From Bacteroidia bacterium (GTDB lineage: Bacteria; Bacteroidota; Bacteroidia; J057), in the NCBI GenBank assembly GCA_033391075.1, contig JAWPMV010000001.1:7316001-7380000 (forward strand): a stretch of 64,000 bases of DNA. The letters are read 5' to 3'. Under the pieces are notes generated by a model, which saw only the letters and a list, made by a program, of their open reading frames with translations, ran no database searches and was not told where the DNA came from. A program made the position numbers and the translations under genes. How positions within the stretch are numbered: the stretch's first letter is position 1; each line of letters begins with the position of its first letter. Shown here piece by piece: positions 11,893 to 35,217 of the stretch.

Positions 11893-11912
11893 ATTCCTCA
11901 TCATCAATTGCA
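11870..11912. terminator. 15-bp perfect inverted repeat between convergent genes
   Basis: The left arm 11870-11884 (TGCAATTGATGATGA) pairs perfectly with the right arm 11898-11912 across a 13-nt loop that contains the CotH-like gene's stop codon. It has no strong T-run on the plus strand. The hairpin lies 15 bp before the end of the convergent gene at 11927, so it probably ends or protects both transcripts. Confidence 0.5.
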
Positions 11913-11926
11913 CTCATTGCTAAGGC

Positions 11927-16669: not shown

Positions 16670-17770
16670 ATGGAACTACCTACTACGCAATCCAATCGTT
16701 TGTTGTCCCTGGATTTCTTTCGGGGAATGACCATGTTTTTACTTATTGGCGAATTTACAGGCATATTCGAAGCGCTGGTCGATCCTGTTTTTGAAGGGGG
16801 AATCATTCATGCTTTTGCCATGCAATTTCATCACCATCCCTGGAACGGCTTACGATTCTGGGACCTGATTCAGCCTTTTTTCATGTTTATCGTAGGCGTA
16901 GCCATTCCTTTTTCGGTGAGAAATCGGGAAAAGAAAGGGGAAGATAATTCGAGCTTAACGAAGCATGCCTTCAAACGAGCTTTATTACTCTTATTGCTCG
17001 GTTGGGCCTTGTACTGCATTGGTCCGGGAAGGATCACCTTTCGCTTTCAAAATGTCCTCGCTCAATTATCAGTTACCTATTTGGTCGCCTTTTTATTGAG
17101 GAATAAAAGCTGGCAAATCCAGCTGGGCATCAGTTTAGGTATACTACTATTAACGGAGATTATTTACCGGACTTTTGGGGTAGCGGGTTTTGATCAGGCC
17201 TATACGCCGGATCAGAATTTTGGTGCATATGTGGATCTCCTCATTTCGGGCGAACTTTCCGGTGGACATTGGGTTTCTTTTAATGCCATTCCTACAACGG
17301 CACATAGCATTTGGGGCGTATTGGTGGGTATGCTTTTGATGAGCGATAAAAGCAGTAAAGAAAAACTGAAGGTCTTATTGATTGCAGGTTTTGCAGGAGT
17401 GGTTTTGGGTTATGCACTTGATCCCATAATTCCTATCATCAAAAGAATCAGTACAAGTTCATTTGTAATTGTAAGTGGAGGCTGGTCTGTTCTGGCAATG
17501 GCTTTATGTTATTGGCTGATCGATGTAAAGGGAGTTAAGAAATGGGTGCCTCCTTTTGCCATCGTAGGTATGAATCCCCTCTTCATTTACCTCTTTGCGC
17601 ATGTGGGAGGAGCTGCTTTGATTAAAAGTATGGTTAAACCTTTTACCTATGCATTCTCAGGCATCATTACAGAAATAGGCGCCGAGATTTTGACAACCTC
17701 CATCGTCTGGTATCTGCTCTGGTACATCTGCTATTGGCTGTACAAAAAAGAAATATTCATCAGAATTTAA
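16670..17770 (+). CDS. DUF5009/NagX-like multi-pass membrane acyltransferase homologue
   Basis: A 366-residue integral membrane protein with about ten hydrophobic helices. The opening RLLSLDFFRGMTMFLL and the stretch FWDLIQPFFMFIVGVAIPFS are typical of the DUF5009 / heparan-alpha-glucosaminide N-acetyltransferase-related family found next to sugar-utilisation genes in Bacteroidota. Members are thought to move or acetylate sugars at the inner membrane; the function of this one is not established. Its last 37 bases overlap a longer reading of the next gene, but the preferred start of that gene (17800) lies 29 bp downstream, suggesting co-transcription. Confidence 0.78.
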   Translation: MELPTTQSNRLLSLDFFRGMTMFLLIGEFTGIFEALVDPVFEGGIIHAFAMQFHHHPWNGLRFWDLIQPFFMFIVGVAIPFSVRNREKKGEDNSSLTKHAFKRALLLLLLGWALYCIGPGRITFRFQNVLAQLSVTYLVAFLLRNKSWQIQLGISLGILLLTEIIYRTFGVAGFDQAYTPDQNFGAYVDLLISGELSGGHWVSFNAIPTTAHSIWGVLVGMLLMSDKSSKEKLKVLLIAGFAGVVLGYALDPIIPIIKRISTSSFVIVSGGWSVLAMALCYWLIDVKGVKKWVPPFAIVGMNPLFIYLFAHVGGAALIKSMVKPFTYAFSGIITEIGAEILTTSIVWYLLWYICYWLYKKEIFIRI

Positions 17771-17799
17771 TCCCTTTCTCCCTGGACAATACTATAGAC

Positions 17800-19614
17800 A
17801 TGAATAAGCTAATCATTTCCGTCTGGCTGCTCCTTTTCCTTGTAATTCTTCCTTCCTGCGATGCTTCAAAAAAAGCGCTCCAAAATAATTCATCTACAGC
17901 TTTGGCCAAGGTAGATCTTTCGCCCTTGAAGTGGGGTAAAGGAGAATTGCAGCGCTATGTCCAAATGGATAATCGCGCTTTTCCTGACAATCCCCTGGCA
18001 GTTGGGAAAAATGGAGCGGTGACCAATACCTTTCATGCAGCCGCTTCTCGCGCAGGCTTTGAGGCCCTGAAACAGGGAGGGAGTTCGATGGATGCTGCCA
18101 TGACGACAGCTTTGACTCAGGTTACTTTAAATGCCGGAGCAGTTATCAGCTTCTTTGGGATTATGAATCTGGTGCATTATGATGCAGCTAGTGGAGAGAT
18201 TGTGAGCATGGATGCGACCTGGAATTCGGTGCAAAATGAAACTGAACCCATGAGTATCCCGGGGAAAATAGATATCAACGACAAATTTAAAGTCAGTGAG
18301 CCTAGCGGAAGAACGGCTTTGGTAGGAGGATTTATGAAGGGCCTGGAAGAAGCACATGCACGTTATGGGAAATTGCCCTTTGAGGAAATTTTCAAACCAG
18401 CTATTCATTTAGCAGAAGAGGGATTTGTGATGTCAGAAGCTACAGCCAATATGTTTGAACGCAGGGATGATGTGATTCGAAGACTAGCTGAAACCAAAGC
18501 AACTTTAGTAAAAGCCGATGGAAGTGCCTATCAAGCGGGCGATCTTTTTAAACAGCCTACGCTTGCTGGAACTTTGCGCAAAATTGCCCAGGAAGGCTCG
18601 GATTATATGTATACAGGAGCCTGGGCGAAAAAGGCGATTGAAGCTATTCAAGCTGATGGAGGAAAAATGACGGAGAAAGATCTTGCAGACTACAAGGTGA
18701 TCTGGAACGAACCTTTACGGGCACAATATGGAGACTATGAAGTGGCTGTCTTAGGCCCTCCTGTTATGGGCTCGGTCAATCTGCTGGAAGCCTTGAATTT
18801 GGCCTATGAAACGGATATTGCTGGCAGCGGTCATTGGTCGAAAAGTGGCGAATCACTGCGAAAGATATCGGATGTTAGCAATTTCTATACCCTGAGTTAT
18901 ATCAATTCAGCTATGCAGGGCATCATTTATCCGGGCATCGACCTTTCTATGGAGTCTCGCGTTCAAAAAGAAACCTCTAAAAAGTTATGGGCCAGTTTTC
19001 AGGAAGGTAAACGCCTCATGCCATATGCCGATCCCAATCCCAAGCATTCGGATACGGTAGTGGCCATCGATAAAGATGGCAATATGACTGCAGTTACGCA
19101 TTCTATCAATTGCATCGTCTGGGGTTCAACCGGGATCATGGTAGATGGCATATCCATCGGCGATGCTGCCTCCTTTCAACAACAACAATTGAATCAAATT
19201 AAGCCCGGTGATCGCTTACCTTCGCCTATAGAAGTTGGAATCATCTCGAAAAATGGAAAGCCTGTGCTTCCTTTCGCCTCCATGTCTACCGGTCTACATC
19301 AGCAAAGCGTCCAATCCATTCTGAATTTCATGGCTTTTGATATGAATGTAAAAGAGGCAGTAGATGCTCCTTGTATCTTCCTTCCCAAAACGGATTTATC
19401 CAATCCTTTGGCTCCTAAATTATATGTACAGCTTATGAAAGGAAGCTTTCCAGAACAGGTAATGGAAGAAAGTGGCTTGCCTATTATTGAACTTCCCGCT
19501 TCCGAGAGAAGATACAATCAGGGGCTATGGATTGGGATTTATCGCGATCCGGACACGGGAGAGTTGGAGGCTTGTTCGCCGCCCTATGCGACGGGCAAGG
19601 CTCTGGCGTATTGA
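17800..19614 (+). CDS. gamma-glutamyltransferase family lipoprotein
   Basis: A 604-residue protein from the ATG at 17800, which gives a lipoprotein signal (MNKLIISVWLLLFLVILPSC). Gamma-glutamyltransferases are Ntn hydrolases that self-cleave before a Thr and then cleave gamma-glutamyl bonds, for example of glutathione. Large-subunit features include GGSSMDAAMTTALTQ and SGRTALVGGF. The candidate catalytic Thr is in HSDTVVAIDKDGNMTAVTHS, where many relatives have Thr-Thr. The region that normally reads GSGV...LNN is replaced by GSTGIMVDGISIGDAAS, so this is a divergent family branch whose substrate may not be glutathione. Acts on the periplasmic side. Confidence 0.85.
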   Translation: MNKLIISVWLLLFLVILPSCDASKKALQNNSSTALAKVDLSPLKWGKGELQRYVQMDNRAFPDNPLAVGKNGAVTNTFHAAASRAGFEALKQGGSSMDAAMTTALTQVTLNAGAVISFFGIMNLVHYDAASGEIVSMDATWNSVQNETEPMSIPGKIDINDKFKVSEPSGRTALVGGFMKGLEEAHARYGKLPFEEIFKPAIHLAEEGFVMSEATANMFERRDDVIRRLAETKATLVKADGSAYQAGDLFKQPTLAGTLRKIAQEGSDYMYTGAWAKKAIEAIQADGGKMTEKDLADYKVIWNEPLRAQYGDYEVAVLGPPVMGSVNLLEALNLAYETDIAGSGHWSKSGESLRKISDVSNFYTLSYINSAMQGIIYPGIDLSMESRVQKETSKKLWASFQEGKRLMPYADPNPKHSDTVVAIDKDGNMTAVTHSINCIVWGSTGIMVDGISIGDAASFQQQQLNQIKPGDRLPSPIEVGIISKNGKPVLPFASMSTGLHQQSVQSILNFMAFDMNVKEAVDAPCIFLPKTDLSNPLAPKLYVQLMKGSFPEQVMEESGLPIIELPASERRYNQGLWIGIYRDPDTGELEACSPPYATGKALAY

Positions 19615-19921: not shown

Positions 19922-20599
19922 ATGAAGATTCTAGTTGTTGAAGATGAAAAACCTTTGCTTGACGCAATCATCAGGTATTTTAACAAGGATAAAGTTATCT
20001 GTGAACGAGCGGAGGATTTTGATAATGGATCTGAAAAGATTGCCTTATATGATTACGATTGTGTGATTCTGGACTTAGGTCTTCCAGATGGACATGGATT
20101 AGATCTGGTCAAACAACTAAAAGAAAAGGAAGATGATACAGGGATAATCATTATCTCTGCTAATGGAACGCTCGAATCAAAGATTGATGGATTGCAGATA
20201 GGAGCGGATGATTATATCACCAAACCTTTCGCCTTATCCGAACTAAATGCAAGGGTAAAGGCCATCATAAGGCGGAAACAGTATAGAGGAAAGAGCCTTT
20301 TCAAAATGAATGAAATAGAGGTTCATATAGAAGAAAGGCGAGTAATCATACTTGGGGAAGAGTTGAAGCTTACCAAGATTGAATACCAGCTTCTTCTTTA
20401 CCTGATGAGGAATAAAAACCGAATCATAACCAAAAACTCTATTGCTGAACACCTCTGGGGAGATCATATGGACTATGCGGATTCCTATGATTTTATTTAT
20501 TCGCATATGAAGAATCTCCGTAAAAAACTCCTGGCTTCAGGTTGCCAGGATTATATAAGAACCATGTACGGGGTGGGTTATAAAATGACGGAAGGGTGA
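19922..20599 (+). CDS. OmpR-family two-component response regulator
   Basis: A 225-residue regulator from the ATG at 19922; an in-frame extension to 19790 runs through the operator and is rejected. Residues 1-115 are a receiver domain (E7/D8, phospho-acceptor D51 in VILDLGLP, K101 in ITKPF). Residues about 130-225 are a winged-helix trans_reg_C domain with LTKIEYQLLLYLMRNKNRI and YIRTMYGVGYKM. It overlaps the kinase gene by four bases (GTGA), a sign of translational coupling. Candidate binding sites resembling tandem CCAGAATT lie in front of its own gene and two downstream units. Confidence 0.93.
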   Translation: MKILVVEDEKPLLDAIIRYFNKDKVICERAEDFDNGSEKIALYDYDCVILDLGLPDGHGLDLVKQLKEKEDDTGIIIISANGTLESKIDGLQIGADDYITKPFALSELNARVKAIIRRKQYRGKSLFKMNEIEVHIEERRVIILGEELKLTKIEYQLLLYLMRNKNRIITKNSIAEHLWGDHMDYADSYDFIYSHMKNLRKKLLASGCQDYIRTMYGVGYKMTEG

Positions 20600-21885
20600 G
20601 ACTAAGTACCATAAATACCCAATACTACATAGGCGCTTTTGTATGTATTCTGATAATCCATGGCCTGATTTCTTATGGGCTGGTAACCTATTTTGTTCAC
20701 CAAAGACTTGAAAAAGCGCTCTTAAAGGAAAAGCGAACCATTCAACGAGCGATAGATGAAGCAGATAGTATCCCTGATTTTCCGGGTTTTGGTGAAAATG
20801 AGTTTAGCATTTCCCTCCAGTATAGTCCTGTTGGAAAGAAAGATATATTTAAAACAGTAAGCCTTTATAGCTCGCGAGATGAAGAGGAATTGGAATACTA
20901 TGAACTGGCAACTCAAGTTAACAAGGCAAGCTCGGTTTATGAGGTCAGGATAAGAAGGTCTTTGGTTCGAACGCAAGAGTTGATTCTGAGCCTGGTTGCT
21001 TCCAGTTTTTTTGCCCTTTTATTAATTCTTTTGTCCTGGTTCCTGTTCTTCAGAAAGCTGGATTTAAAGCTCTGGTCACCGTTTTTCAGTATGCTCCATC
21101 AATTGAAGAATATTGACTTAAGAGAAGGCGAGGAAATCAATCTTCCAGAAACCTCGATATGGGAATTTCAACAGTTAAATAATGAAGTCAACAAATTGAC
21201 AGAAAAGCTGGGGAAAGACTACATGGGACAAAAGCATTTTATAGAAAATGCCTCTCACGAACTTCAAACTCCATTGGCCATTATCAAAACCCAACTGGAA
21301 CTCATCCTACAATCCGAAAAACTGGACGAAGTAGAGCTTCAGCAAATCGCATCTTGCATAAATGCAGCAGATCGCTTAACCCGAATTAATAAGTCACTCA
21401 TCAGTATATCTCGGATCGAGAATCTTAATTACATCGAAAAAGATAGGATTTACCTTGAAGAAGTGATTGAGCATAATATGAGCATTTTCCGGATGGAAGC
21501 TGAAAGCAAGGAAATAACCATTAACTACGAAATCAATAATCCTTGTGAATTGTTGATTAATGAAACCCTGGCTCATATGCTCGTGCGCAACCTGATCCAG
21601 AATGCCATTCGCCACAATATAGAAAAGGGGGAAATTTGGATTATTCTTAATGCCACCTCTCTTATCATAAAGAACACAGGAAAAGTTACAGATACTCCCT
21701 CTGAAAAATTCTTTGAGCGCTTTTATAAAAGCTCAGAGTCGGAAGGCTCAATTGGTTTGGGCCTGGCAATTGTGAAAGAGATTTGTGAACGCTACGGTTT
21801 TCAGGTTTCCTACGATAGAAGGGATTCTCTTCACGTCTTTTCAATCGACATTCCCTCCCCCAAAAAATCTCCAGAAAAAAATTGA
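20596..21885 (+). CDS. membrane sensor histidine kinase
   Basis: A 429-residue kinase that begins with GTG inside the regulator's stop codon. There are two transmembrane helices (about 8-34 and 129-152) around a short 95-residue extracytoplasmic segment without a recognised sensor domain. The cytoplasmic part has a HAMP-like linker, the H-box with phospho-accepting H221 (NASHELQTPLA), an N-box with N336 (NLIQNAIRH), an NTG variant of the D-box near 360, and the G-box GLGLAI (387-392). All catalytic motifs look intact. It should phosphorylate the regulator just upstream. The signal is unknown; the small sensor segment favours membrane or envelope stress over a nutrient ligand. Confidence 0.93.
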   Translation: MRLSTINTQYYIGAFVCILIIHGLISYGLVTYFVHQRLEKALLKEKRTIQRAIDEADSIPDFPGFGENEFSISLQYSPVGKKDIFKTVSLYSSRDEEELEYYELATQVNKASSVYEVRIRRSLVRTQELILSLVASSFFALLLILLSWFLFFRKLDLKLWSPFFSMLHQLKNIDLREGEEINLPETSIWEFQQLNNEVNKLTEKLGKDYMGQKHFIENASHELQTPLAIIKTQLELILQSEKLDEVELQQIASCINAADRLTRINKSLISISRIENLNYIEKDRIYLEEVIEHNMSIFRMEAESKEITINYEINNPCELLINETLAHMLVRNLIQNAIRHNIEKGEIWIILNATSLIIKNTGKVTDTPSEKFFERFYKSSESEGSIGLGLAIVKEICERYGFQVSYDRRDSLHVFSIDIPSPKKSPEKN

Positions 21886-21926: not shown

Positions 21927-21962
21927 TGATTGTTTTTCACAAAGGACGTTAATCTGAGAAAT

Positions 21963-22283
21963 ATGAAAATTAAAGTGTCCAACCTTCCGTATTCAACCAG
22001 CTGGTTCGAATTGCATGATTTGTTTAATGGTTTCGGTGACATAGTCTCCTTGAGGATACAGAATTACTATCAACATAAGTCTGTTGCGAAGATTGCGATT
22101 ATAGAAATGCGTAACACAGAATGTGCTTTTGAAGCAATTGAAGGTCTTAATGGGGATTATTTCAAGGGGAATATTTTGATACTTGATATTTACGAAAATC
22201 AGGGGAAGGAAGAATTACTCACTTTCCTGAGGAGAAGAGTTCAGGGGTTTTTCGGGAGTAAGACAAATCGATATTTAGCTTAA
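21963..22283 (+). CDS. small RRM-type RNA-binding-like protein 1
   Basis: A 106-residue protein with one RNA recognition motif fold. RNP2 is at 3-8 (IKVSNL in KIKVSNLPY), followed by helix SWFELHDLFNGFGDIVSLRI. The strand that normally carries RNP1 reads VAKIAIIEM (42-49), with no aromatic residues; typical bacterial RRMs have KGFGFVEM there. Helix 2 (AFEAIEGLNGDYFKG) is standard. The fold call is firm, but direct RNA stacking may be weak or use other residues. The start at 21963 is chosen because the upstream in-frame start overlaps the promoter. Followed by the DksA-like and second RRM genes with spacings of about 40-50 bp. Confidence 0.85.
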   Translation: MKIKVSNLPYSTSWFELHDLFNGFGDIVSLRIQNYYQHKSVAKIAIIEMRNTECAFEAIEGLNGDYFKGNILILDIYENQGKEELLTFLRRRVQGFFGSKTNRYLA

Positions 22284-22323
22284 TAGCATGACTCTAAAGT
22301 TCAATAGTTAACATCCAAGATAT

Positions 22324-22710
22324 ATGGAAAACTACCATATCAGATATAGCGATACGGATTTAGCTTATTTCAGTAAAATAATCCGTACGAAGATCAATGA
22401 GGCAGAGGAAAGCCTGGCCCAGCTCCTGGATTCATTGGAATCGTCTAATGATCAAACGACTTCGAGGATAAATGGAATAGATGACTACGCTGATTATGCA
22501 GATCGGGAATTCCTCTACGTCATGATTGCCCGACAAGAAAAATTTATCTACCAATTGGAAGAGGCTTTGCGAAGAATAGGCAATAAAACCTATGGAATAT
22601 GCTCCCGAACAGGGAAACTCATAGATAAACGAAGATTACTTCTGGTTCCTCATACAACGATGAGCCTGGAAGCTAAGGAATCAAGATCGCGAGACAGTCT
22701 TGCATCATAA
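22324..22710 (+). CDS. TraR/DksA-family protein with degenerate zinc finger
   Basis: A 128-residue protein. A coiled-coil-forming helix pair (about 12-85) precedes a DksA-like globular tip: ALRRIGNKTYGICSRTGKLI, then RRLLLVPHTTMSLEAKE. Classical DksA has four zinc-binding cysteines; here only C93 remains, and the other positions are Thr, Ser and other residues. Such cysteine-poor forms are common in Bacteroidota, so loss of zinc is not by itself a sign of decay. DksA proteins enter the RNA polymerase secondary channel and tune transcription with ppGpp. The gene sits between two RRM genes in one apparent operon. Confidence 0.85.
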   Translation: MENYHIRYSDTDLAYFSKIIRTKINEAEESLAQLLDSLESSNDQTTSRINGIDDYADYADREFLYVMIARQEKFIYQLEEALRRIGNKTYGICSRTGKLIDKRRLLLVPHTTMSLEAKESRSRDSLAS

Positions 22711-22758
22711 AAGACACTTATTAAATCACTTAGCTATTGCTCTAAAATCAGAAATAAG

Positions 22759-23124
22759 ATGAAAATCAATGTATCAAACCTTGACCTTTCTGTATACAAA
22801 AGCGATTTGCAGGAATTATTTGAGGAGTTCGGAGAAGTAAGTAGTATCCGAATTTTATCTCCTTACCTTAACAAGCAAAGATCAAAAATGGCAATCGTGG
22901 AGATGGAAGATGTCCTAAGTGCGATGGCGGCAATAGAGGACCTTAATGGCGAGCTGTATATGGGTAGGCCTATTGCCGTCCAACCCGAAAGCCGAATCCT
23001 TAGTGCCCCCAGACAAGCGCTGGTTTCACAAAGCCTCGATATAGAAAACGATGAGTATGATGATTTATGGGAGCCTGGATATGAAAAGATTAAAAAGAAG
23101 GATTACTCGAAATACCTGGAATAG
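22759..23124 (+). CDS. small RRM-type RNA-binding-like protein 2
   Basis: A 121-residue paralogue of the protein at 21963: RNP2-like INVSNL (3-8), helix KSDLQELFEEFGEV, and an RNP1-position strand SKMAIVEM again without aromatic residues. A C-terminal extension (about 80-121) is acidic then basic (ENDEYDDL, KIKKKDYSKY). Pairing of two related RRMs in the same operon suggests they act together, for example as RNA chaperones or on translation. The unit is closed by a strong terminator at 23234. Confidence 0.85.
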   Translation: MKINVSNLDLSVYKSDLQELFEEFGEVSSIRILSPYLNKQRSKMAIVEMEDVLSAMAAIEDLNGELYMGRPIAVQPESRILSAPRQALVSQSLDIENDEYDDLWEPGYEKIKKKDYSKYLE

Positions 23125-23233
23125 GAATCTTTAGGATTTTGCCCATAGCAGTTCGTGCTTTATAGTCATTGCCATTGATTAAACAGGTGGCTAATTACCC
23201 TGATAGAATTTGCATATTAGGGACTTCGTATGG

Positions 23234-23263
23234 AAACCAGGCAACTGCCTGGTTTTCTTTTTT
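23234..23263 (+). terminator. intrinsic terminator after the RRM-DksA-RRM unit
   Basis: A perfect 9-bp stem (23234-23242 with 23247-23255, loop AACT) runs directly into a T-rich tract TTTTCTTTTTT. It separates the RRM operon from the ATP-grasp cassette. Confidence 0.85.
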
Positions 23264-23357: not shown

Positions 23358-24392
23358 ATGAGGAAATACAAACTTCTGGTCCTCACAGACCATGCTTTGC
23401 ATAGAAGTTATGAATCCCTGTATCCGCTTCTTTCAGAAATGGCTATGCATCCTTTATGTGAGCGTATAGACGTAGCGAGTAGAGGTCTACCAGAAAATGA
23501 TTCTTTTTTTCACGAACATAATTCGGAGGAAATTTTTGTTCATCAGCTAAAAGAAGGATTTGAATTTTCTAATCGGAGACAATTTTTCGGGGCTAAACCT
23601 GAGCGGAAGCGTCCTGGATCATATGATTGGATATTACTGAGAATACCTCGCCCCAATCCAGAGCCATTATTTAAATTTATTGCCAGCGTATGGGGAACAG
23701 AAAAGGTAATCAATAACCCCTTAAACATCCATGAATTAGGATCGAAAGCTTATTTGTTGAATTTCAAAAAGCTTTGTCCTCCTATGCATCTGACGTATCA
23801 CCTTGAAGAGATCCTTAAATTCCGGAAGAAATATCCCATTGTCTTGAAGCCGCTCTTTCAATCCGGGGGAAGAGGAATCATTAAAATTGCTGGTAATACC
23901 GTATGGGAGGGGAATCAATCCCTCTCCCTGGAGGCCTATTTACCTACGCTGGAACAAAACTCCAGAAATGGCTATTTAATCATGAAATATCTGGAAAATG
24001 TGGATGAAGGCGACAAACGTATCATTGTGGTTGATGGAAATATCATGGGTTCTGTCTTAAGAGTACCTCGTGATAACTCATGGCTCTGCAATGCACATCA
24101 GGGAGGAATTTCCATTCTTAGTCGAGTAGATCAGGACGAATTGAAAATAATAGAGAAAATAGACCCTGTGATGAAAAAACATGGGATCATATTTTATGGG
24201 ATAGATACTTTAATGGGGGATCATGGGAAACGGGTACTATCAGAAATCAATGCTTCAAATGCAGGAGGTATTTTACCCGCCGAAATAGTATCCGGAGAAG
24301 CCGTGATTAGTCGAACCAGCAAAGCATTGTGGGAATATATACTCTCTAAAGAAAAAATAAAGTTACAGATTCTAGACGCTAACACTCTGTAG
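23358..24392 (+). CDS. GshB-like ATP-grasp ligase 1
   Basis: A 344-residue protein resembling prokaryotic glutathione synthetase (GshB). Nucleotide-binding features: K164 in PIVLKP, a flexible GGRG loop (170-173), DKR at 219-221 within GDKRIIVVDGNIMGSVLRVP, and the metal-binding end D283 ... E296/N298 in LSEINASNAGG. In E. coli GshB the matching stretches bind ATP and the peptide acceptor. It therefore likely forms an amide bond between a carboxylate and an amine using ATP. The N-terminal segment (LLVLTDHALH) replaces the usual GshB opening, so the substrates are probably not gamma-glutamylcysteine and glycine. No GshA is nearby. A close paralogue lies at 26039. Confidence 0.85.
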   Translation: MRKYKLLVLTDHALHRSYESLYPLLSEMAMHPLCERIDVASRGLPENDSFFHEHNSEEIFVHQLKEGFEFSNRRQFFGAKPERKRPGSYDWILLRIPRPNPEPLFKFIASVWGTEKVINNPLNIHELGSKAYLLNFKKLCPPMHLTYHLEEILKFRKKYPIVLKPLFQSGGRGIIKIAGNTVWEGNQSLSLEAYLPTLEQNSRNGYLIMKYLENVDEGDKRIIVVDGNIMGSVLRVPRDNSWLCNAHQGGISILSRVDQDELKIIEKIDPVMKKHGIIFYGIDTLMGDHGKRVLSEINASNAGGILPAEIVSGEAVISRTSKALWEYILSKEKIKLQILDANTL

Positions 24393-24401
24393 TTGTTCAT
24401 C

Positions 24402-24430
24402 GGTATGGGCCATTATGGCTCATACCCTTT
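24402..24430 (+). terminator. weak hairpin after the first ATP-grasp gene
   Basis: A 10-bp stem with one G-T pair (24402-24411 with 24417-24426) ends in CCTTTAA. The T-run is short, so it may attenuate rather than stop transcription into the next three genes, whose first start lies 160 bp on. Confidence 0.45.
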
Positions 24431-24589
24431 AAGCCTAATCCGGACCCTTTAGTATAAAATTTCCTTTTACTATACATCAAACCAAATATCCGATAAGCCA
24501 ATAACAATGCTTAAGGCCCGGGCAATTTTTTTGATGGGAGATTTAATTATGCATTCAAATTTAATTCAGCAAGCATAAAAAATTTACGA

Positions 24590-26035
24590 ATGAAAATCCC
24601 TATTATTCGGGCTGTCAATCCTGGAGATTTTGAACCCAGTAATCATTGGTATCCAAAGGCATTAAATGCCCAAATCCATCCGATGGTAGCTTATTTCATG
24701 AATTTGAAAGCAGAAAAAGTTATCAAAAGGTACTGCCACCTGAATCCAACTGTTGATAAAAATAAATTAGAAGAAATTATCTCGTACAGGCCCAAATTTT
24801 TTCTGCATGCAGGAGTTGATCTATTTCATGTAACAAATACTGCTGGCAACAGAAAGATGGTTGTGATTGAAACAAACTCTAGTCCTTCTGGCCAAAAATC
24901 TTTACCTCTTCTTGATGACAACTTAGAACAGGGAGGATATTTGCGATATGTGGAGCAGTCTTTTCTCCCTTATTTAAAAGCTAAAAGGCCGAAGATCAAG
25001 GGAGGCTTAGCTGTTTTGTATGATAAAAATGAGATGGAGGCTTCAGGATATGCACATGCTATGGCAGATGTATTTCAGGAGCAGGTCTATTTGGTTCCCT
25101 TTTTTCGCTTCGATGAAAATCCACCGGTAAGGTTTACAGATCATGTAATGGAGATACGCCTGGATGACAATAGCTGGCTCCCTATTAGAGCCGCCTTTCG
25201 CTATGTTACCCAAAGGCCCTGGAATCGCATCCCGGTTCATACAAGGACGGTCATTTTGAATCCTATTATTACTTGCCTCGCAGGGGGTAGAAACAAAATG
25301 ATTGCAGCCAAAGCTTATGATCTTTATAATGCGGAGATTGCCCCTTATGGATTACAAATTAGAACCCCTGAAACCATTTGGGACGTCAGAAAAAATGAAA
25401 TTCCCCTTTGGGTAAAAAAGCTGGGAGGACAGGCGGTAATCAAAGTCCCTTATGGAAATGCAGGGCAAGGAGTTTATACCATTGTAAATGAAGGGGAACT
25501 TTATGAATTCATGGAAATGGATTTCTCCTATGATATGTTCATCGTTCAAAGTCTGATTGGGAATTATCAATGGAGCTCGACGGGGAGCAAAGGAAAGTTT
25601 TTCCACGTAGGCACGATGCCTGACCGTCGGAATTTTTCTTATGCAGCAGATATCAGGATGATGGTTCATGCAACCAAAGAGGGCATGAAACCACTTGCAG
25701 TTTATGCGAGAAGAGCAAGATTACCATTAGTCGATGATTTAGAGGAGGGAAAGAGCTCCTGGGATATCCTTGGAACCAATCTTTCTATCAAACAAGATGA
25801 CGGTACCTTTACGACGGACAGTTCCCGCTTAATCATGATGGATCGAAAAGACTTCAATCGGCTGGGGATCAGTGTAGATGATCTCATCGAAGGCTACATT
25901 CAGTCAGTGCTTGCGACCATCGCCATTGATAAAATGGCCATCACCTTAATCAACCAAAAAGGTCGATTCAAATCCCGTCTGTTTAAATCCCTAAACGATG
26001 ATCCTTCTTTAGTAGAAGAGATTACATTAGAATAA
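24590..26035 (+). CDS. divergent ATP-grasp-like protein, unknown substrate
   Basis: A 481-residue soluble protein. The central part (about 265-365) looks like an ATP-grasp fold: K285 in AVIKVPYGNAGQG as a lysine plus glycine-rich loop, a VQSLIGNY strand and FSYAADIRMMVH as the usual R-containing strand. An N-terminal VVIETNSSPSGQKS (91-104) recalls the metal-binding Glu/Asn end of ATP-grasp enzymes and could reflect a circularly permuted order. I do not recognise an exact family. It is followed after 3 bp by the second GshB-like gene, so the two are co-translated. The likely role is another ATP-driven ligation, or activation of the scaffold used by the two GshB-like enzymes. Confidence 0.65.
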   Translation: MKIPIIRAVNPGDFEPSNHWYPKALNAQIHPMVAYFMNLKAEKVIKRYCHLNPTVDKNKLEEIISYRPKFFLHAGVDLFHVTNTAGNRKMVVIETNSSPSGQKSLPLLDDNLEQGGYLRYVEQSFLPYLKAKRPKIKGGLAVLYDKNEMEASGYAHAMADVFQEQVYLVPFFRFDENPPVRFTDHVMEIRLDDNSWLPIRAAFRYVTQRPWNRIPVHTRTVILNPIITCLAGGRNKMIAAKAYDLYNAEIAPYGLQIRTPETIWDVRKNEIPLWVKKLGGQAVIKVPYGNAGQGVYTIVNEGELYEFMEMDFSYDMFIVQSLIGNYQWSSTGSKGKFFHVGTMPDRRNFSYAADIRMMVHATKEGMKPLAVYARRARLPLVDDLEEGKSSWDILGTNLSIKQDDGTFTTDSSRLIMMDRKDFNRLGISVDDLIEGYIQSVLATIAIDKMAITLINQKGRFKSRLFKSLNDDPSLVEEITLE

Positions 26036-26038
26036 ATT

Positions 26039-27052
26039 ATGGATAGGCAATATTCTTTCTTGGTCCTAACGGACCACGGGCTACACCATGAGCGTAATCC
26101 CATTTATAGCTTGCTCCCTCAATTGAGGAAGCATCCCCAGTGTAGCGAAGTGCATGTTGCGAGTAGAACTAATTCCAGGAATGAGAATTTCTTCCAGACT
26201 TATTCTTCCTATGTATGTGAAGTACTAGAGATAAAGGAAGGTTTCCGCTTTGATGAAAGCGGAAAACAATTTTTTGATACAGGGATTGTGCGAGAAGTTG
26301 ATTCCTATGATTGTATTCTTATGCGCCTTCCACGGCCCGTGGAGCGACAATTTATGGAGTTTGTAGCAAAACTGGATCATCAAGTGGTTTTCATCAATCA
26401 TCCTTTGGGTATAGAGGCAACCAGCAACAAGGCATTTTTGACAAATTTTCCCAAATTATGCCCCCCGATGAAACTCTGCTTTAGTATCAATGAAATCCTA
26501 AAGTTCGCCTCGAATTTTCCCATTGTATTGAAACCCCTGAAAGAATACGGAGGAAAGGGCCTCCTGAAAATTGAGCATGATTCACTTTTTGAAGGTGAAA
26601 CAGAACATCCTACCATAGACTATTTGCTCAAGCACGAATCCTACATCAATACGGAGGGATACCTTGCCATGAAATTTATGAAGAATGTGAGGGAGGGAGA
26701 CAAAAGGATCGTATTGGTGGGTAGAAATATCATGGGAGCTTCCTTGCGTCTTCCCCCGGAGGGTTCCTGGATATGCAATGTAGCCCAGGGAGGAACCTCA
26801 ATTGCAGCAGAGCTAACTCCCGGAGAGAAAGAAATTATCTGGCAGATTCTTCCCTTCCTGGAGGAGAGAGGAGTTTTTATCGCGGGGGTTGATACCTTAT
26901 TGGGAGATCATGGGAAACGAGTCTTATCAGAAATCAATACCCTGAGCGTTGGTGGTTTCCTCAACATTCAGGAGCAAAGCGGCCAGCCTGTTTTAGCGAG
27001 AACGGTTCAAAATATCATTGATTATGTCCATCAAAAAAGTAGAAATAGATAA
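26039..27052 (+). CDS. GshB-like ATP-grasp ligase 2
   Basis: A 337-residue paralogue of the protein at 23358 over its full length: LVLTDHGLHH opening, INHPLGI...SNKAFLTNFPKLCPPM matching NNPLNI...SKAYLLNFKKLCPPM, K165, GGKG (171-174), GDKRIVLVG (DKR 221-223) and VDTLLGDHGKRVLSEIN (D285, E299, N300). All ATP-grasp residues seen in ligase 1 are kept, so both should be active. Two paralogous ligases in one cassette suggest sequential addition of two different units, or of the same unit at two positions. The 3' end overlaps the hydrolase gene by 29 bp. Confidence 0.85.
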   Translation: MDRQYSFLVLTDHGLHHERNPIYSLLPQLRKHPQCSEVHVASRTNSRNENFFQTYSSYVCEVLEIKEGFRFDESGKQFFDTGIVREVDSYDCILMRLPRPVERQFMEFVAKLDHQVVFINHPLGIEATSNKAFLTNFPKLCPPMKLCFSINEILKFASNFPIVLKPLKEYGGKGLLKIEHDSLFEGETEHPTIDYLLKHESYINTEGYLAMKFMKNVREGDKRIVLVGRNIMGASLRLPPEGSWICNVAQGGTSIAAELTPGEKEIIWQILPFLEERGVFIAGVDTLLGDHGKRVLSEINTLSVGGFLNIQEQSGQPVLARTVQNIIDYVHQKSRNR

Positions 27053-28007
27053 AGATATTTCCATGATTCTGAAATTTGATCTTGAGCAAACCCCCAGGCA
27101 GTCCATTAGACATTACTGGTTAAAGATCATTTCGGATGGATTGGGCAGTCCCATTTGTGTTCCTGTAATGGTCGCCAGGGGAAAAAAAGACTTCCCCATT
27201 CTGGGTCTTACTGCGGCGGTACATGGAAATGAATTAAATGGGATTCCTGTGATTCAGCGCCTGTTTAATGAGATAGACGTAAGAGAATTAAAGGGCACAA
27301 TTGTCGGTATTCCCGTTGTGAATATTCCCTCTTTCACCCGAAAGAAAAGAAGATTCAACGATGGAGTCGATCTAAATCATATTATGCCTGGTAAGGTGGA
27401 TGGAAATGTAAGCGAAGTATATGCGCACAGGTTTATAGAACGCCTTGTAAAGCATTTTGATTATCTGCTGGATCTGCATACGGCCAGTTTCGGACGCATC
27501 AATTCCTATTACATTCGAGCAGACATGAAGCATCCCATTACCCGAAAATTGGCATTGTTGCAAAATGCGCAGATCATCGTTCACAATCCACCTTCAGACG
27601 GGACCCTCAGGGGAACTGCAGAATCCATGGATATTCCTGCGATTACGCTTGAAGTAGGAAATCCAAATACCTTCCAGAAGAAACTCATTCGTAGCGGGGT
27701 CGAAGGAATCCATAATGTTCTTTCCTACCTGGAAATGACCGAAGATGAAATCGAACAACCAGAAAAGGAAGCGGTGATTTGTAAACGTTCTTATTGGATT
27801 TATACCGACACAGGAGGATTACTTACAATCCCTGTAAATCTTACGGATCATGTCAAAAAAGGAGATTTAATTGCTAGTCTTAGAGACGTTTTTGGTAACC
27901 TCAGCCGAGAATATTTTGCTCCCGAAGACGGTGTTGTAATTGGAAAAAGTATTAGCCCAGTGAATCAATCCGGAGGAAGGATTTTGCATTTGGGAGTTTT
28001 GAAGTAG
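27024..28007 (+). CDS. AstE/AspA-type zinc hydrolase (succinylglutamate desuccinylase / aspartoacylase family)
   Basis: A 327-residue protein from the ATG at 27024, inside the end of the upstream gene. Zinc ligands are visible: H67 and E70 in AAVHGNELNG and H152 in DLHTASFG; the substrate-carboxylate region is NIPSFTRKKRRFNDGVDLNH, and E210 in TLEVG is the probable general base. A C-terminal beta domain (about 255-327) ends in GRILHLGVL. Family members remove N-acyl or N-succinyl groups from amino acids, or trim carboxy-terminal amino acids. In a cassette with amide ligases it would release, edit or recycle the product. The overlap with ligase 2 implies coupled translation. Confidence 0.87.
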   Translation: MSIKKVEIDKDISMILKFDLEQTPRQSIRHYWLKIISDGLGSPICVPVMVARGKKDFPILGLTAAVHGNELNGIPVIQRLFNEIDVRELKGTIVGIPVVNIPSFTRKKRRFNDGVDLNHIMPGKVDGNVSEVYAHRFIERLVKHFDYLLDLHTASFGRINSYYIRADMKHPITRKLALLQNAQIIVHNPPSDGTLRGTAESMDIPAITLEVGNPNTFQKKLIRSGVEGIHNVLSYLEMTEDEIEQPEKEAVICKRSYWIYTDTGGLLTIPVNLTDHVKKGDLIASLRDVFGNLSREYFAPEDGVVIGKSISPVNQSGGRILHLGVLK

Positions 28008-28126: not shown

Positions 28127-31100
28127 TCAATTGTCGAGGATGTAGACCCGCTCGGCTTTCACCCAATTGGCGCTTTGAGCACCCAGGAAGTACAAGCCTT
28201 CGGCCAATCCATTGATGTCTAACTCTATATCGTTTCGTCCAACTTCAAGCAGGACGGTTTTCTCTAATACTCTTTGGGCAGCTCCATTGACCAGGCTGAT
28301 GGTAACTTCCAGCGGTTGACTCACGACAAACTCAACATGGAGGATATCATCCTGACGTAAGGGAATCGGATAGACATTGAATTCCAGTAATTCTCCATCC
28401 ACTTTCTCAAATTCAATCACCACTACATTGGAGAATTGCTGACTGTTGTCCTCACCGATGGCTTTCACCCGATAGTAATATTTAGTTTCTACCAGTCCTG
28501 TATCCAGGTGTGAATATGTCCTCGGATCAGGCGTATCTCCCAGAGAAGCTTGAGTATTGATCTCCTCAAAGATGATACTATCAACAGATCGTTCGAGTAT
28601 GTATTCCAGCATGTCGTTTTCAGATGAAATCGTCCATTCCAACAATACATCATCTCCCACAATCATTCCTTCCAACCAGAGGTCTGGTGCATTCGGCATT
28701 GGGATTTCCCCAGCACAATTACACATTCCGTCTTCTACATCATCAGTCGTCATCGGATCTCCATCATCACAGGCTGTTCCGGCAGGTGGACAACTAGCCC
28801 CTACACAATTACAGTTCGCATCGAACATATCATTGAAGGTAGTCGAGTCCCCATCATCACAGACGGTTCCCAGCGGAGGACAAGGCTCACCGACACAATT
28901 ACACATGCCATCTTCCATGTCATTGATGGTGGTCGAATCGCCATCATCACAAGTCGTTCCAACAGGAGGACAAGTTGCTCCCACACAATTACAGTTTCCA
29001 TCAAACATGTCATTGAAGGTCGTACTGTCACCATCATCACAAGCTGTTCCCAGCGGAGGACAAACTTCCCCTACACAATTACAGAACCCATCTTCCATAT
29101 CATTGATGGTAGTTGAATCTCCATCATCGCAGCTAGTGCCCATTGGAGGACAGGGGGTTCCGAGACAGTTACAATTTGCATCGTACATGTCATTGGTAGT
29201 CGTCGAATCTCCATCATCACAAGTGGTACCTTCCGGCATACATGGATAGGTGATATTCTTGAGGATCCTCGGGATCAGTTGGCTCGCTTCATCATCCAGA
29301 TAAACAACTGTACCCGCACTTCCTGACTCATACCAGCTCAAGGTGAAGGGGCGGTTGTTGTCAACAATGTCAAGACAAACGCTTCCGATCAATAAGGAAT
29401 CCGGTGCAGCTGCAACAGAATCTCCCAATCCCGGTACCGCCAGTTCAATATTATATGAGGCTCTTCCTCCCGCTGGAGTTGTTACGGTTGGGAGTAGGTA
29501 AACGGGAGGATCACTGATGTTATCGGATGAATACAAAGGATTCGCCAATACATCCGGATCAAAGTCAAACATAAGGTTTGAGCTTCCCAGTTTACCCGGT
29601 CCGTCATATGCCATAAAAATATCTACACAGAAGGTGTTCCCATCTGAAGTCGGATTGCCAAAGCAGAGATCAAATTGGGTAGCCGGAGGCACTGCTACAG
29701 GAGTTCCCGCACAATTACACATACCGTCTTCCACATCATTGATCGTCATAGGATTGCCATCATCACAAGTAGTTCCTGCAACAGGACAAGGAGTTCCTAC
29801 ACAATTACAAAGACCATCGTAAAGGTCATTGAAGGTTGTTGAATCCCCATCATCACAAGTCGTACCCGCTGGAGGACAGGGAACTCCTATACAATTACAC
29901 ATGGCATCGTAGGCATCCATGGTAGTCGTTGAATCTCCATCATCACAAGGAGAGCCTACAGGCGGACAATTTGCCGCTATATTCAATCCTTTAAGGGTAC
30001 CAGCATTCAGAATAGTTGATTCATCATCCAGATAAACAACGGTTCCAACTGTTCCTGATACAAACCAATCTACGAGTACTGCCTGGGTCGTATCCAGACG
30101 GTCCAGACAAATGCTACCAATCAGGATTGAGTCCGGAGCTACTGCTACAGAATCACCAAAACCGGTTACCGCCAGTTCGATATTGAATGAACCGCGTCCT
30201 GTTGAAGGGCTCGTAACGGTAGGTGTTATATAGAAAGGAGGATCACTGATATTATCAGAGATATATACTGCATTTGCCAAAACAGCCGGATCAAAGTCAA
30301 ACATCAGGTTTGAACTTCCCAGATTACCCACTCCATTGTAGGACATATAAATGTCTGCACAGAGATTGGTGGTGGTCAAAGTTGGATTGGCAAAACAGAG
30401 ATTAAACTCAGTGGCTGGTGTTCCCGGAGGGGGTGGAGGTAATGGCGTTCCCGCACAATTACACATACCATCCTCAACATCATTTATGGTATTTGCATTT
30501 CCATCATCACAAGTCGTACCTGCGGGTGGACAAGGCGTACCTACACAATTACAATTCGCATCATACATGTCATTGCCGGTCGTTGCATCTCCATCATCAC
30601 AAGTAGTTCCCTGTGGAGGACAGGAGAAGTCATAAACGAGTGGCTTTAACGTACCTGCAATCAGAAGAGTAGCCTCATCATCGAGATAAACTACCGTTCC
30701 TATGGTACCAGACACAAACCAGTCCCAATTAACCGTTTGAGTTGTATCGAGAAGATCCAGGCAAATTCTACCAATCAGGAGGGAATCTGGAGCTACTGCT
30801 ACAGAATCTCCAAAGCCGGTAACGGCCAGTTCGATATTGAATGAGGCTCTCCCCGCAGAAGGACCCGTAACTGTTGGCGTAATATAGAAAGGAGGATCAC
30901 TGATGTTGTCAGAAACATACACAGCATTGTTAACCTGAGCGGTATTGAAATCAAACATCAGGTTGGCACTTCCCAGATTACCCACTCCATTGTAAGACAT
31001 AAAGATGTCTGCACATAGGGTAGTAGCTGTATGAGAAGCATTGCCAAAGCTGAGGTTAAACTCAGTAGCTGGTGTTCCCGGAGGGGGGGGAGGTAATGGC

Positions 31101-34100
31101 GTTCCCGCACAATTACACATACCATCCTCAACATCATTTATGGTATTTGCATTTCCATCATCACAAGTCGTACCTGCGGGTGGACAAGGTGTCCCTACGC
31201 AATTACAATTCGCATCATACATGTCATTGCCGGTCGTCGCATCTCCATCATCACAAGTAGTTCCCTGCGGAGGACAGGAGAAGTCATAAACGAGTGGCTT
31301 TAACGTACCTGCAGTAAGGATCGTAGCCTCATCATCGAGATAAACTACCGTTCCTATGGTGCCGGATACAAACCAATCCCAATTAATGGTCTGAGTTGTA
31401 TCGAGCAGATCCATACAGATTCTACCGATCAATAAAGAATCTGGAGCCACGGATACAGAATCTCCAAATCCAGTAACAGCGAGCTCGATATTGAAAGAGC
31501 TTCTACCTGCAGATGGACTGGTAACTGTCGGTGTGATATAGAAAGGAGGATCACTGATGTTGTCAGAAACGTATACAGCATTGTTTACCTGAGCGGTATT
31601 GAAATCAAACATCAGATTTGCACTTCCCAATCGGCCATCTCCATTGTAAGACATAAAGATGTCTGCACATAGGGTAGTGGCTGTATGGGAGGCATTACCA
31701 AAGCTGAGGTTAAACTCAGTGGCTGGTGTTCCCGGAGGCGGTGGAGGCAATGGCGTTCCCGCACAATTACACATACCATCCTCAACATCATTTATGGTAT
31801 TTGCATTTCCATCATCACACGTTGTACCTGCGGGAGGACAAGGTGTCCCTACGCAATTACAATTCGCATCATACATATCATTGGTCGTGGTAGAATCCCC
31901 ATCATCACAAGTGGTTCCCTGTGGAGGGCAAGAGAAATCGTAAACCAATGGACGCAAAGTGCCTGCTGTCAGGATGGTCGTTTCATCGTCAAGATACACG
32001 ACTGTCCCTACCGTACCAGATACAAACCAATCCCAATTGATGGTCTGAGTTGTATCAAGTAAATCCAGGCATACCCGACCGATCAGGAGAGAATCTGGCG
32101 CAACTGCCACAGAATCTCCAAAACCAGTTACGGCCAATTCAATATTAAAAGATGCTCTCCCTGCAGAAGGACCCGTTACCGTTGGCGTAATGTAGAAGGG
32201 AGGATCACTGATGTTATCAGAAACATACACAGCATTATTAACCTGAGCCGTATTGAAATCAAACATCAGGTTGGCGCTTCCCAATCGGCCATCGCCATTG
32301 TAAGACATAAAGATATCTGCACAAAGCGTAGTGGCTGTATGTGAGGCATTGCCAAAGCTGAGGTTAAACTCAGTGGCTGGTGTACCTGGAGGGGGTGGGG
32401 GCAATGGCGTTCCCGCACAATTACACATACCATCCTCAACATCATTTATGGTATTTGCATTTCCATCATCACAAGTTGTACCTGCTACTGGGCATGGAGT
32501 ACCTACACAAACACAATTCGCATCATACATATCATTGGTCGTGGTAGAATCGCCATCATCACAAGTGGTTCCTTGAGGAGGACAGGCAAAATCATATACC
32601 AATGGACGCAGCGTGCCGGCGCTAAGAATGGTGGTTTCATCATCGAGATAAACGACTGTCCCTACCGTACCAGATACAAACCAATCCCAATTGATGGTCT
32701 GAGTTGTATCAAGTAAATCCAGGCAAATCCTACCAATCAAGAGAGAATCTGGCGCAACTGCCACAGAATCTCCAAATCCGGTTACGGCCAGTTCAATATT
32801 AAAAGATGCTCTTCCTGCTGAAGGACTGGTAACAGTCGGTGTGATATAGAAGGGAGGATCACTGATGTTGTCAGAAACGTATACAGCATTGTTAACCTGG
32901 GCCGTATTGAAATCAAACATCAGATTTGCACTACCGAGTTTCCCATCGCCATTGTAAGACATGAAGATGTCTGCGCAAAGCGTAGTGGCTGTATGAGAAG
33001 CATTGCCAAAGCTGAGGTTAAACTCAGTGGCTGGCGTACCCGGAGGGGGTGGAGGCAATGGCGTTCCCGCACAATTACACATACCATCCTCAACATCATT
33101 TATCGTATTTGCATTTCCATCATCACAAGTCGTTCCTGCTACTGGGCATGGTGTACCTACACAAACACAATTTGCATCATACATATCATTGGTCGTGGTA
33201 GAATCGCCATCATCACAAGTGGTTCCTTGTGGAGGACAGGCAAAATCATATACCAATGGACTCAGCGTACCTGCACTCAGGAGAGTTGTTTCATCATCGA
33301 GATAAACTACCGTTCCAACGGTACCAGATACAAACCAATCCCAATTGATGGTCTGAGTTGTATCAAGTAAATCCAGGCAGATTCTTCCGATCAGAAGAGA
33401 ATCCGGAGCAAGCGCTACAGAATCTCCAAAACCAGTTACGGCTAATTCTATATTATAAGAAGCCCTTCCAGTGGCCGGACTGGTAACAGTCGGGATGATA
33501 TATACTGGAGGATCACTAATATTGTCTGAGATATAAACGGCATTATTGACCTGAGCCGTATTGAAGTCAAACATCAGGTTTGCACTTCCCAATTTTCCTG
33601 CTCCGTCAAATGACATATAGATATCCGCACACAGATTTGTTGCTGTATGACTGGCGTTGCTAAAACTTAAATTATAAGTAGTAGCAGCTGGCGCTGGCGG
33701 CGGTGGGGGTAAAGGCGTTCCCGCACAATTACACATACCATCCTCAACATCATTTATCGTATTTGCATTTCCATCATCACAAGTTGTACCTGCTGCCGGA
33801 CAAGGAGTACCCACACAATTACACATCCCATCTTCCAAATCATTGAAGGTGGTTGAATCGCCATCATCACAAACTGTATTGACTGGAGGACAAGGCGTCC
33901 CTACACAATTACAATTCGTATCATACACATCATTGGTGGTAGTCGAATCCCCATCATCGCAGACAGTACCTGCCGGAGGACAAGCGAAGTCATATACTAA
34001 AGGAGTAAGTGTTCCTCCTGTCAGGATCGTTGTTTCATCATCAAGATAGACAACCGTTCCAACGGTCCCTGAAACAAACCAATCCCAATTGATGGTTTGA

Positions 34101-35137: not shown

Positions 35138-35217
35138 AAAGAATGAGTTTAGAGAAGCGGTATGAATGGGGCCCGGGAACGGGCTACCCATTCATACCAG
35201 AAGCAATACAGATATTC

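Follow-up and report, generated by a model that had tools for sequence, protein, structure and literature searches.

A recurring ATP-grasp ligase and AspA-fold hydrolase gene set of Bacteroidota and its linkage to polyamine biosynthesis genes

The current study concerns a four-gene cassette encoded on the forward strand of a 64,000-nucleotide stretch of the genome of a Bacteroidia bacterium (GenBank assembly GCA_033391075.1, contig JAWPMV010000001.1, positions 7,316,001 to 7,380,000), referred to here as the window. The cassette consists of a GshB-like ATP-grasp ligase of the type native to the organism's family (L1, 344 aa, 23358-24392), an ATP-grasp ligase from a family that has no Pfam entry (MID, 481 aa, 24590-26035), a second GshB-like ATP-grasp ligase from another lineage (L2, 337 aa, 26039-27052) and a hydrolase of the AspA/AstE/DoeB fold (AE), which ends at 28007 and may start at either a TTG at 27018 or an ATG at 27024. 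L1 and MID are separated by 197 bp. MID, L2 and AE look like a single transcription unit, since MID and L2 lie just 3 bp apart and L2 overlaps AE by 29 bp when the latter is read from the ATG at 27024. These four open reading frames, along with the 29-bp overlap, agree with an earlier annotation made from the sequence alone (the original prediction). None of the four products matched a defence system in PADLOC at E ≤ 0.01.

Three of the four products can be placed by Pfam profiles. L1 and L2, which share 44% identity, match PF02955 (GSH-S_ATP) with 99.1 and 95.6 bits (E-values of 2.6e-28 and 3e-27) against a gathering score of 23. The residues K130, K164, D283, E296 and N298 (L1 numbering) are conserved throughout the 49 rows of the GshB-like alignment, which takes in all 47 full-length copies from the loci described below, 10 truncated or stop-bearing copies having been skipped. 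L1 and L2 thus share both the family and the Mg/ATP residues of glutathione synthetase, whereas their scores of 118.1 and 126.7 bits do not reach the NCBIfam gshB equivalog cut-off of 272. AE matches PF24827 with 116.8 bits (gathering score 25, E 1.1e-33), and its zinc-ligand and catalytic residues E72, H154 and E212 are present in 54/54 aligned rows, as is H69 in 53/54 (53 of 58 full-length rows were aligned with it, those of L017, L030, L041, L062 and L092 being omitted, and 6 truncated or stop-bearing copies were skipped). The AlphaFold2 model of AE (pLDDT 91.8) is closest to 3cdx (Z 34.7) and DoeB (Z 34.3), with the cyanophycin dipeptide hydrolase CphZ at Z 28.5, and AE resembles the DoeB/AspA/CphZ amidases over the whole fold as well as in the zinc ligands. 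It differs from DoeB in falling far short of the DoeB equivalog TIGR02994 (80.1 vs 402.7 bits).

The central ligase is less readily classified. Neither the window protein alone nor any of the 72 rows of the MID alignment (the window plus 71 of 80 loci; L039, L049, L052, L054, L062, L064, L074, L087 and L092 were omitted by choice) matched a Pfam family at a meaningful score, and no convincing sequence match was found in the PDB. NCBIfam yielded weak matches only, to MptN in 61/72 rows (best E 1.3e-4) and RimK in 57/72 (best E 6.8e-4), while a profile comparison of MID with its GshB-like neighbours revealed no link either (hhalign probability 0.4). An AlphaFold2 model built from the 72 sequences was obtained with a pLDDT of 87 and a pTM of 0.90. 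Foldseek matched it to 25 chains at E ≤ 0.001, the first being yeast glutathione synthase and a putative glutathionylspermidine synthase. With VIA-align 2, the top match was 3k1t, a putative gamma-glutamylcysteine synthetase (Z 18.0, rmsd 4.0, 331 residues, 13% identity), followed by a near-tied group of ArgX (14.0), LysX (13.7), YjfC (13.6), E. coli GspS (13.5), homoglutathione synthetase (13.3), human glutathione synthetase (13.2), YgiC (13.2) and D-Ala ligase (13.0). E94-x-N96, K285, D354 and R356 are invariant in 72/72 rows and, by comparison with GSS and GspS, we take them to be counterparts of the Mg/ATP residues in enzymes of the glutathione-synthetase class. The model, together with this conservation, says that MID is an ATP-grasp amide ligase; the fold alone does not point to polyamines. 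The original prediction, which had named the lack of an ATP-grasp fold in the 24590-26035 product as grounds for its own rejection, is therefore upheld in its description of three ATP-grasp ligases and an AstE/AspA-type hydrolase with conserved catalytic residues.

A scan of genome contigs confirmed at least 208 MID relatives, and the best 80 of these, a selection leaning toward close relatives, were analysed as loci. Their record titles are either unspecific or denote Bacteroidota (Saprospiraceae, Saprospira grandis, Portibacter, Phaeodactylibacter, Tenacibaculum and others), and two assemblies are counted twice, with two loci each (L022/L033 and L037/L039). When gene orders are read on the MID strand and intervening genes are permitted, MID-GshB-AE is found at 50 of the 80 loci, MID-AE at 12, MID-GshB at 5 and MID with neither partner at 10, the remainder being single instances of GshB-MID-AE, of AE before MID and of MID-AE...GshB-AE, in which the GshB is a weak partial match. 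The order seen in the window, GshB-MID-GshB-AE, occurs at 0/80 loci and in none of seven relatives from the same family, some of which end at contig edges. Hence, a conserved set does exist, as the original prediction had supposed, but the recurring unit is MID-(GshB-like)-AE rather than the four-gene set, with L1 as an extra native copy. The other ground for rejection named in that prediction, an absence of co-occurrence in further genomes, thus applies to the exact four-gene order and not to its three-gene and two-gene versions. Its distribution is narrow: among 60 relatives searched, MID was found in 8, all within the window's own family (8/13 there), and of 395 genomes sampled across the phylum, 9 carried it. 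Several of these genomes are also among the 80 loci (G002=L016, G009=L017, G001=L018, G164=L069, G213=L073, G366=L092), and the two samples are not independent. In two MID-bearing genomes rated 100% complete, a GshB-like protein either has no match (G164) or scores just 44.5 bits (G217), and as far as such sequences go it is dispensable to MID-bearing genomes. In one clade, composed mostly of Phaeodactylibacter (L058, L067, L072, L076, L080 and L084), MID does not adjoin a GshB-like gene and AE, and its neighbors appear by eye to be putative pabB/pabC-type, MscS-type and formate-THF-ligase-type genes, MscS having been profile-tested at L081.

One of the key features of these loci is their association with polyamine genes. 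Among open reading frames of at least 90 aa clustered from up to 8 kb on either side of MID (counts may be low, as MID was missed in L017), the commonest neighbors outside of the cassette encode arginine decarboxylase (ADC, cluster c3, 23 loci), agmatinase (c4, 21 loci) and a deoxyhypusine synthase-like protein (DHS-like, c5, 19 loci). At least one of the three lies in the flanks of 24/80 loci, and for 18 of these 24 it is in one co-directional run with MID, with gaps of up to 350 bp. A single-copy gene would be expected by chance at about 0.2-0.4 loci (1.07 Mb in total). The c3 protein is a SpeA-like ADC (178.5 bits, below the equivalog cut-off of 369), c4 is an agmatinase (201 bits, above the equivalog cut-off of 174.3) and c5 belongs to the deoxyhypusine-synthase family (PF01916, 147.8 bits), with a best NCBIfam match to "homospermidine biosynthesis protein" (109.6 bits, below the cut-off of 450). 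A DHS homologue acting as a homospermidine synthase is described in a previous report (PMC9992855). The linked arrangements include MID-ADC-Agm-DHS-c6-GshB-AE, MID-GshB-AE-ADC-Agm-DHS, ADC-Agm-DHS-...-MID-AE in Tenacibaculum and divergent ones as well. The c6 protein is small and acidic (~90-140 aa), is encoded at L026 (12992-13309) and 13 other loci with similar proteins in L085, L088 and L092, and often adjoins the DHS-like gene or the cassette; neither Pfam nor NCBIfam gave a match to the two members that were scanned. We considered c6 as a LysW-like carrier protein and rejected the idea, as no C-terminal residue is conserved among 14 members. A fusion of GNAT and carbon-nitrogen hydrolase domains also occurs near MID or the polyamine genes (L020, L037, L040, L083, L089 and L009 7231-8751; Pfam assignments for L020 and L009). 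This physical link between the ligase-hydrolase set and polyamine biosynthesis is the new element of the study. The module is real, conserved and, as far as our literature search reached, undescribed, although its parts come from known enzyme classes; by title and abstract start, with most subscription papers outside the search, no description was found of such a set with polyamine genes.

Based upon these features, we give even odds to the cassette being a polyamine conjugation and deconjugation module, similar in its working to GspS and its amidase yet assembled from other families. In such a module, MID would use ATP to convert a carboxylate to its acyl phosphate and then couple this to an amine, for which a polyamine derived from arginine (putrescine, homospermidine or agmatine) is the likeliest candidate. 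At loci that have one, the GshB-like ligase would extend the carboxylate part by another residue, and AE would cut the amide to free the amine. Here we infer the polyamine as the amine, the order of ligation, the reversal of the ligase product by AE and the use of the same substrate by the window MID despite its unlinked polyamine genes. The original prediction had instead pointed to systems that make peptide-like metabolites, though it did not recognise the product of this set. A generic metabolite of that kind is less well supported than the link to polyamine metabolism, which could not be seen from the window itself because the relevant genes lie elsewhere in this genome.

Several observations weigh against polyamine conjugation: 1) the closest fold to MID is the putative gamma-glutamylcysteine synthetase 3k1t, and the polyamine ligases tie with ArgX/LysX, the glutathione synthetases and the D-Ala ligases; 2) Foldseek TM-scores for MID are low (0.35-0.43, with an rmsd of 12-15 Å in the leading rows); 3) no sequence profile connects MID with GspS; 4) at 56/80 loci no polyamine gene is linked, albeit with short contigs being frequent; 5) in the window genome, the recurrent linkage seen across loci is absent, with ADC-agmatinase-DHS at ~143.5-147 kb of contig C1 and the cassette at 7.34 Mb; 6) the linkage label (22/72 rows) is only weakly clustered on the MID tree, requiring 16 changes, at least 11 of them on starred branches, compared with a shuffle mean of 19.1, and 27/500 shuffles were as low as 16, a change count that is inflated by short contigs scored as unlinked; and 7) G217 and G233, two of the 9 genomes with MID in the phylum sample, lack a DHS-like match, for which reason homospermidine cannot be a universal substrate. 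In favor of conjugation, ADC is present in 15/16 MID-bearing genomes. DHS-like proteins occur in 7/9 MID-bearing genomes vs 132/386 others, and we do not regard DHS as a requirement for MID. Also in favor, G010, which carries the closest relative of the window cassette with a MID 90% identical, has a single run of ADC-DHS-GNAT/CN_hydrolase-MID-L2-AE, lacking agmatinase. The G010 ADC shares 78% identity with that of L026, compared with 44-47% for six other family genomes, the window's included, so the polyamine genes of G010 may have been imported too.

The same linkage could also be accounted for by polyamine breakdown or salvage, in which MID would glutamylate or otherwise acylate putrescine or homospermidine as a protecting group to be removed by AE after oxidation. 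There is precedent for such a route in PuuA, which adds a protecting glutamyl group to putrescine, and PuuD, which removes it after oxidation, and the combination of a ligase with an amide hydrolase fits protection and deprotection. However, the linked genes are biosynthetic (ADC, agmatinase and DHS-like), and neither an amine oxidase nor an aldehyde dehydrogenase was found in the 15 neighbor clusters that were profile-scanned (c12-c14, c18 and c24-c30 lay outside the scan). We consider salvage to be improbable.

A somewhat stronger competitor to polyamine conjugation, albeit still an unlikely one in our estimation, is a glutathione-like pathway. In this scenario, MID would make gamma-glutamylcysteine or another gamma-glutamyl compound, the GshB-like ligase would add the last residue to yield a small thiol or gamma-glutamyl tripeptide, AE would recycle the product and the link to polyamines would be indirect. 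Such a pathway would agree with 3k1t as the nearest solved fold and with a GshB homologue as the usual partner of MID (MID-GshB-AE at 50/80 loci). In addition, with a profile of the GshB-like alignment, L1 and L2 were the sole GshB homologues detected in the window genome at E ≤ 1e-10, while GCS2 is represented there by one weak match in a 682-aa frame (28.4 bits vs a Pfam cut-off of 21). A gamma-glutamyltranspeptidase family gene also lies a few kb upstream of the cassette on the same strand (17734-19614; PF01019, 210.7 bits) and could bear on a gamma-glutamyl product. On the other side, 12/80 loci carry MID-AE without a GshB-like gene, in keeping with the genomes G164 and G217, and the scores of L1 and L2 lie far below the gshB equivalog cut-off. 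GCS2 is strong in 2/16 MID-bearing genomes and weak, though over the cut-off, in 7 more, so a GCS2 replacement is not clearly needed; PF04107 and PF08886 were the glutamate-cysteine ligase families searched. MID is just 13% identical to 3k1t, and PF08886, to which 3k1t presumably belongs, was absent along with PF03738 (glutathionylspermidine synthetase) from the 19 Pfam families matched by any of the 72 MIDs at E ≤ 1. PF08886 likewise had no match in the window genome, in a profile search that had no working positive control. Furthermore, a glutathione-like pathway leaves both the AspA-type amidase and the ADC, agmatinase and DHS genes unexplained.

The individual parts of the window cassette appear to differ in ancestry. 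The GshB tree places L1 with L016 and L013 of the window's family (SH-aLRT 99), and L2 with that family's L009 and L011 (97), then with the L071/L094/L068 types, within a clade of other Saprospiraceae (98). The window AE is similarly placed in a foreign clade of 11 rows (99), or 13 rows with L009 and L011 (100), away from those carried by four further genomes in the family (L012, L014/L018, L015 and L016). The family AE as one clade was rejected (AU p 0.0044), for an 8-row group that was named after the first tree and in which L014/L018 are the same gene. The window MID is of the family's own type. Local duplication was dismissed as the origin of L1 and L2, as they fall in different clades of the GshB tree and L2 shares its odd placement with AE. 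From these trees, L2 and AE seem to have been imported together, replacing the native AE, while the native L1 was retained. A shared move of this kind speaks for a functional partnership of L2 and AE.

Upstream of the cassette are a PorY-family sensor kinase gene (20596-21885, forward strand; NF052314, 404.6 bits, cut-off 350), preceded by an OmpR-type response regulator with a likely start at ~19922 rather than 19790, and an apparently separate forward-strand unit of RRM, DksA/TraR-like and RRM genes, assigned by Pfam (21930-23124). The original prediction had tied the cassette to both. L1 begins 233 bp beyond the RRM/DksA operon, and in between lies a forward-strand terminator-like hairpin of 11 pairs followed by a T-run (23232-23257), a pattern match and not proof, given 13 such sites found vs 7.9 in shuffles. 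The two-component system and the RRM/DksA operon thus look like units separate from the cassette and not parts of one operon. Still, the neighborhood recurs weakly near MID (DksA-like genes at 13/80 loci, response regulators at 8, kinases at 7), as do SET genes (7/80). At L110, the polyamine locus of the window genome adjoins an RRM-DksA pair (11081-11940) and a SET gene (11081-13079 in all), and these RRM, DksA-like and SET genes, which are 3' of the locus, mirror the RRM-DksA-RRM genes beside the window cassette. This recurrence, along with a SET-RRM-GshB-MID-AE order at L010, would be expected if the ligases modified a protein or RNA-binding factor in the manner of RimK and AE edited the modification. 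Yet RimK scores are well below those for GSH-S_ATP (38.9 vs 99.1 bits for L1 and 28.1 vs 95.6 for L2), and polyamine genes are commoner neighbors of MID than are DksA or SET, leaving RimK-like modification, in our view, the most improbable of the explanations considered. Downstream of AE on the reverse strand, 28127-35191 encodes a 2354-aa protein with many CPP-GT-CDDG-type repeats, which is perhaps secreted, as its C-terminus has a sub-threshold Por_Secre_tail match (20.9 vs 27 bits).

When polyamine conjugation by the MID cassette is compared with known systems, the obvious parallels are to E. coli GspSA and to YgiC/YjfC, with which it shares the ATP-grasp fold class (MID Z 13.2-13.6), the polyamine context and, for GspSA, the pairing of a ligase with an amide hydrolase, its PDB title denoting a bifunctional synthetase/amidase. 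Unlike these, MID has no sequence relation that we could find, and the fold match is no better than those to LysX and the D-Ala ligases. The GspSA amidase is also a cysteine enzyme, whereas that of the cassette has the AspA fold, is encoded by a separate gene and is usually accompanied by a GshB-like second ligase. The hss-gss clusters of beta-proteobacteria use enzyme families other than those of the MID cassette. In both, homospermidine synthesis is encoded next to an ATP-grasp enzyme for conjugation. For the hss-gss clusters, a potential for glutathionylhomospermidine is noted in PMC9992855, the accessible portion of which mentions no AspA-type hydrolase. In two further reports, YgiC and YjfC are named peptidylpolyamine synthetases (PMC12568646) and sym-homospermidine is the major polyamine in two Flavobacterium species (PMC8570120).

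A more specific proposal, which we offer tentatively and consider rather doubtful, is that an undescribed class of peptidyl- or aminoacyl-polyamines, with homospermidine in most species, is produced in the Saprospiraceae and in some Flavobacteria by an unnamed ATP-grasp family together with a GshB-like extender, the AspA-fold amidase serving as a dedicated off-switch. This would be an independently assembled counterpart of glutathionylspermidine/trypanothione chemistry, in which a His-for-Arg clamp change marks the species with a GshB-capped carboxylate. That mark would have nothing firmer behind it than an association at AE position 121, following a conserved Asn, where DoeB has an Arg that we assume to be the substrate clamp of DoeB-type amidases, and where the window AE and 41/54 AE in total have a His. 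His coincides with GshB in 40 cases and occurs without it in 1, compared with 4 and 9 for Arg (Fisher 1.2e-6; L016 is scored as GshB-bearing though its GshB copy lies upstream). We discount this association as evidence, the tree giving 3 changes and 2 independent pairs, with a median sign-test p of 0.5. Polyamine conjugation provides a concrete, testable hypothesis for an ATP-grasp family lacking a Pfam entry, with at least 208 occurrences confirmed in genome records. If it is true, polyamines would be conjugated reversibly in these bacteria, with consequences for the control of polyamine levels, the stress response or redox buffering in the phylum.

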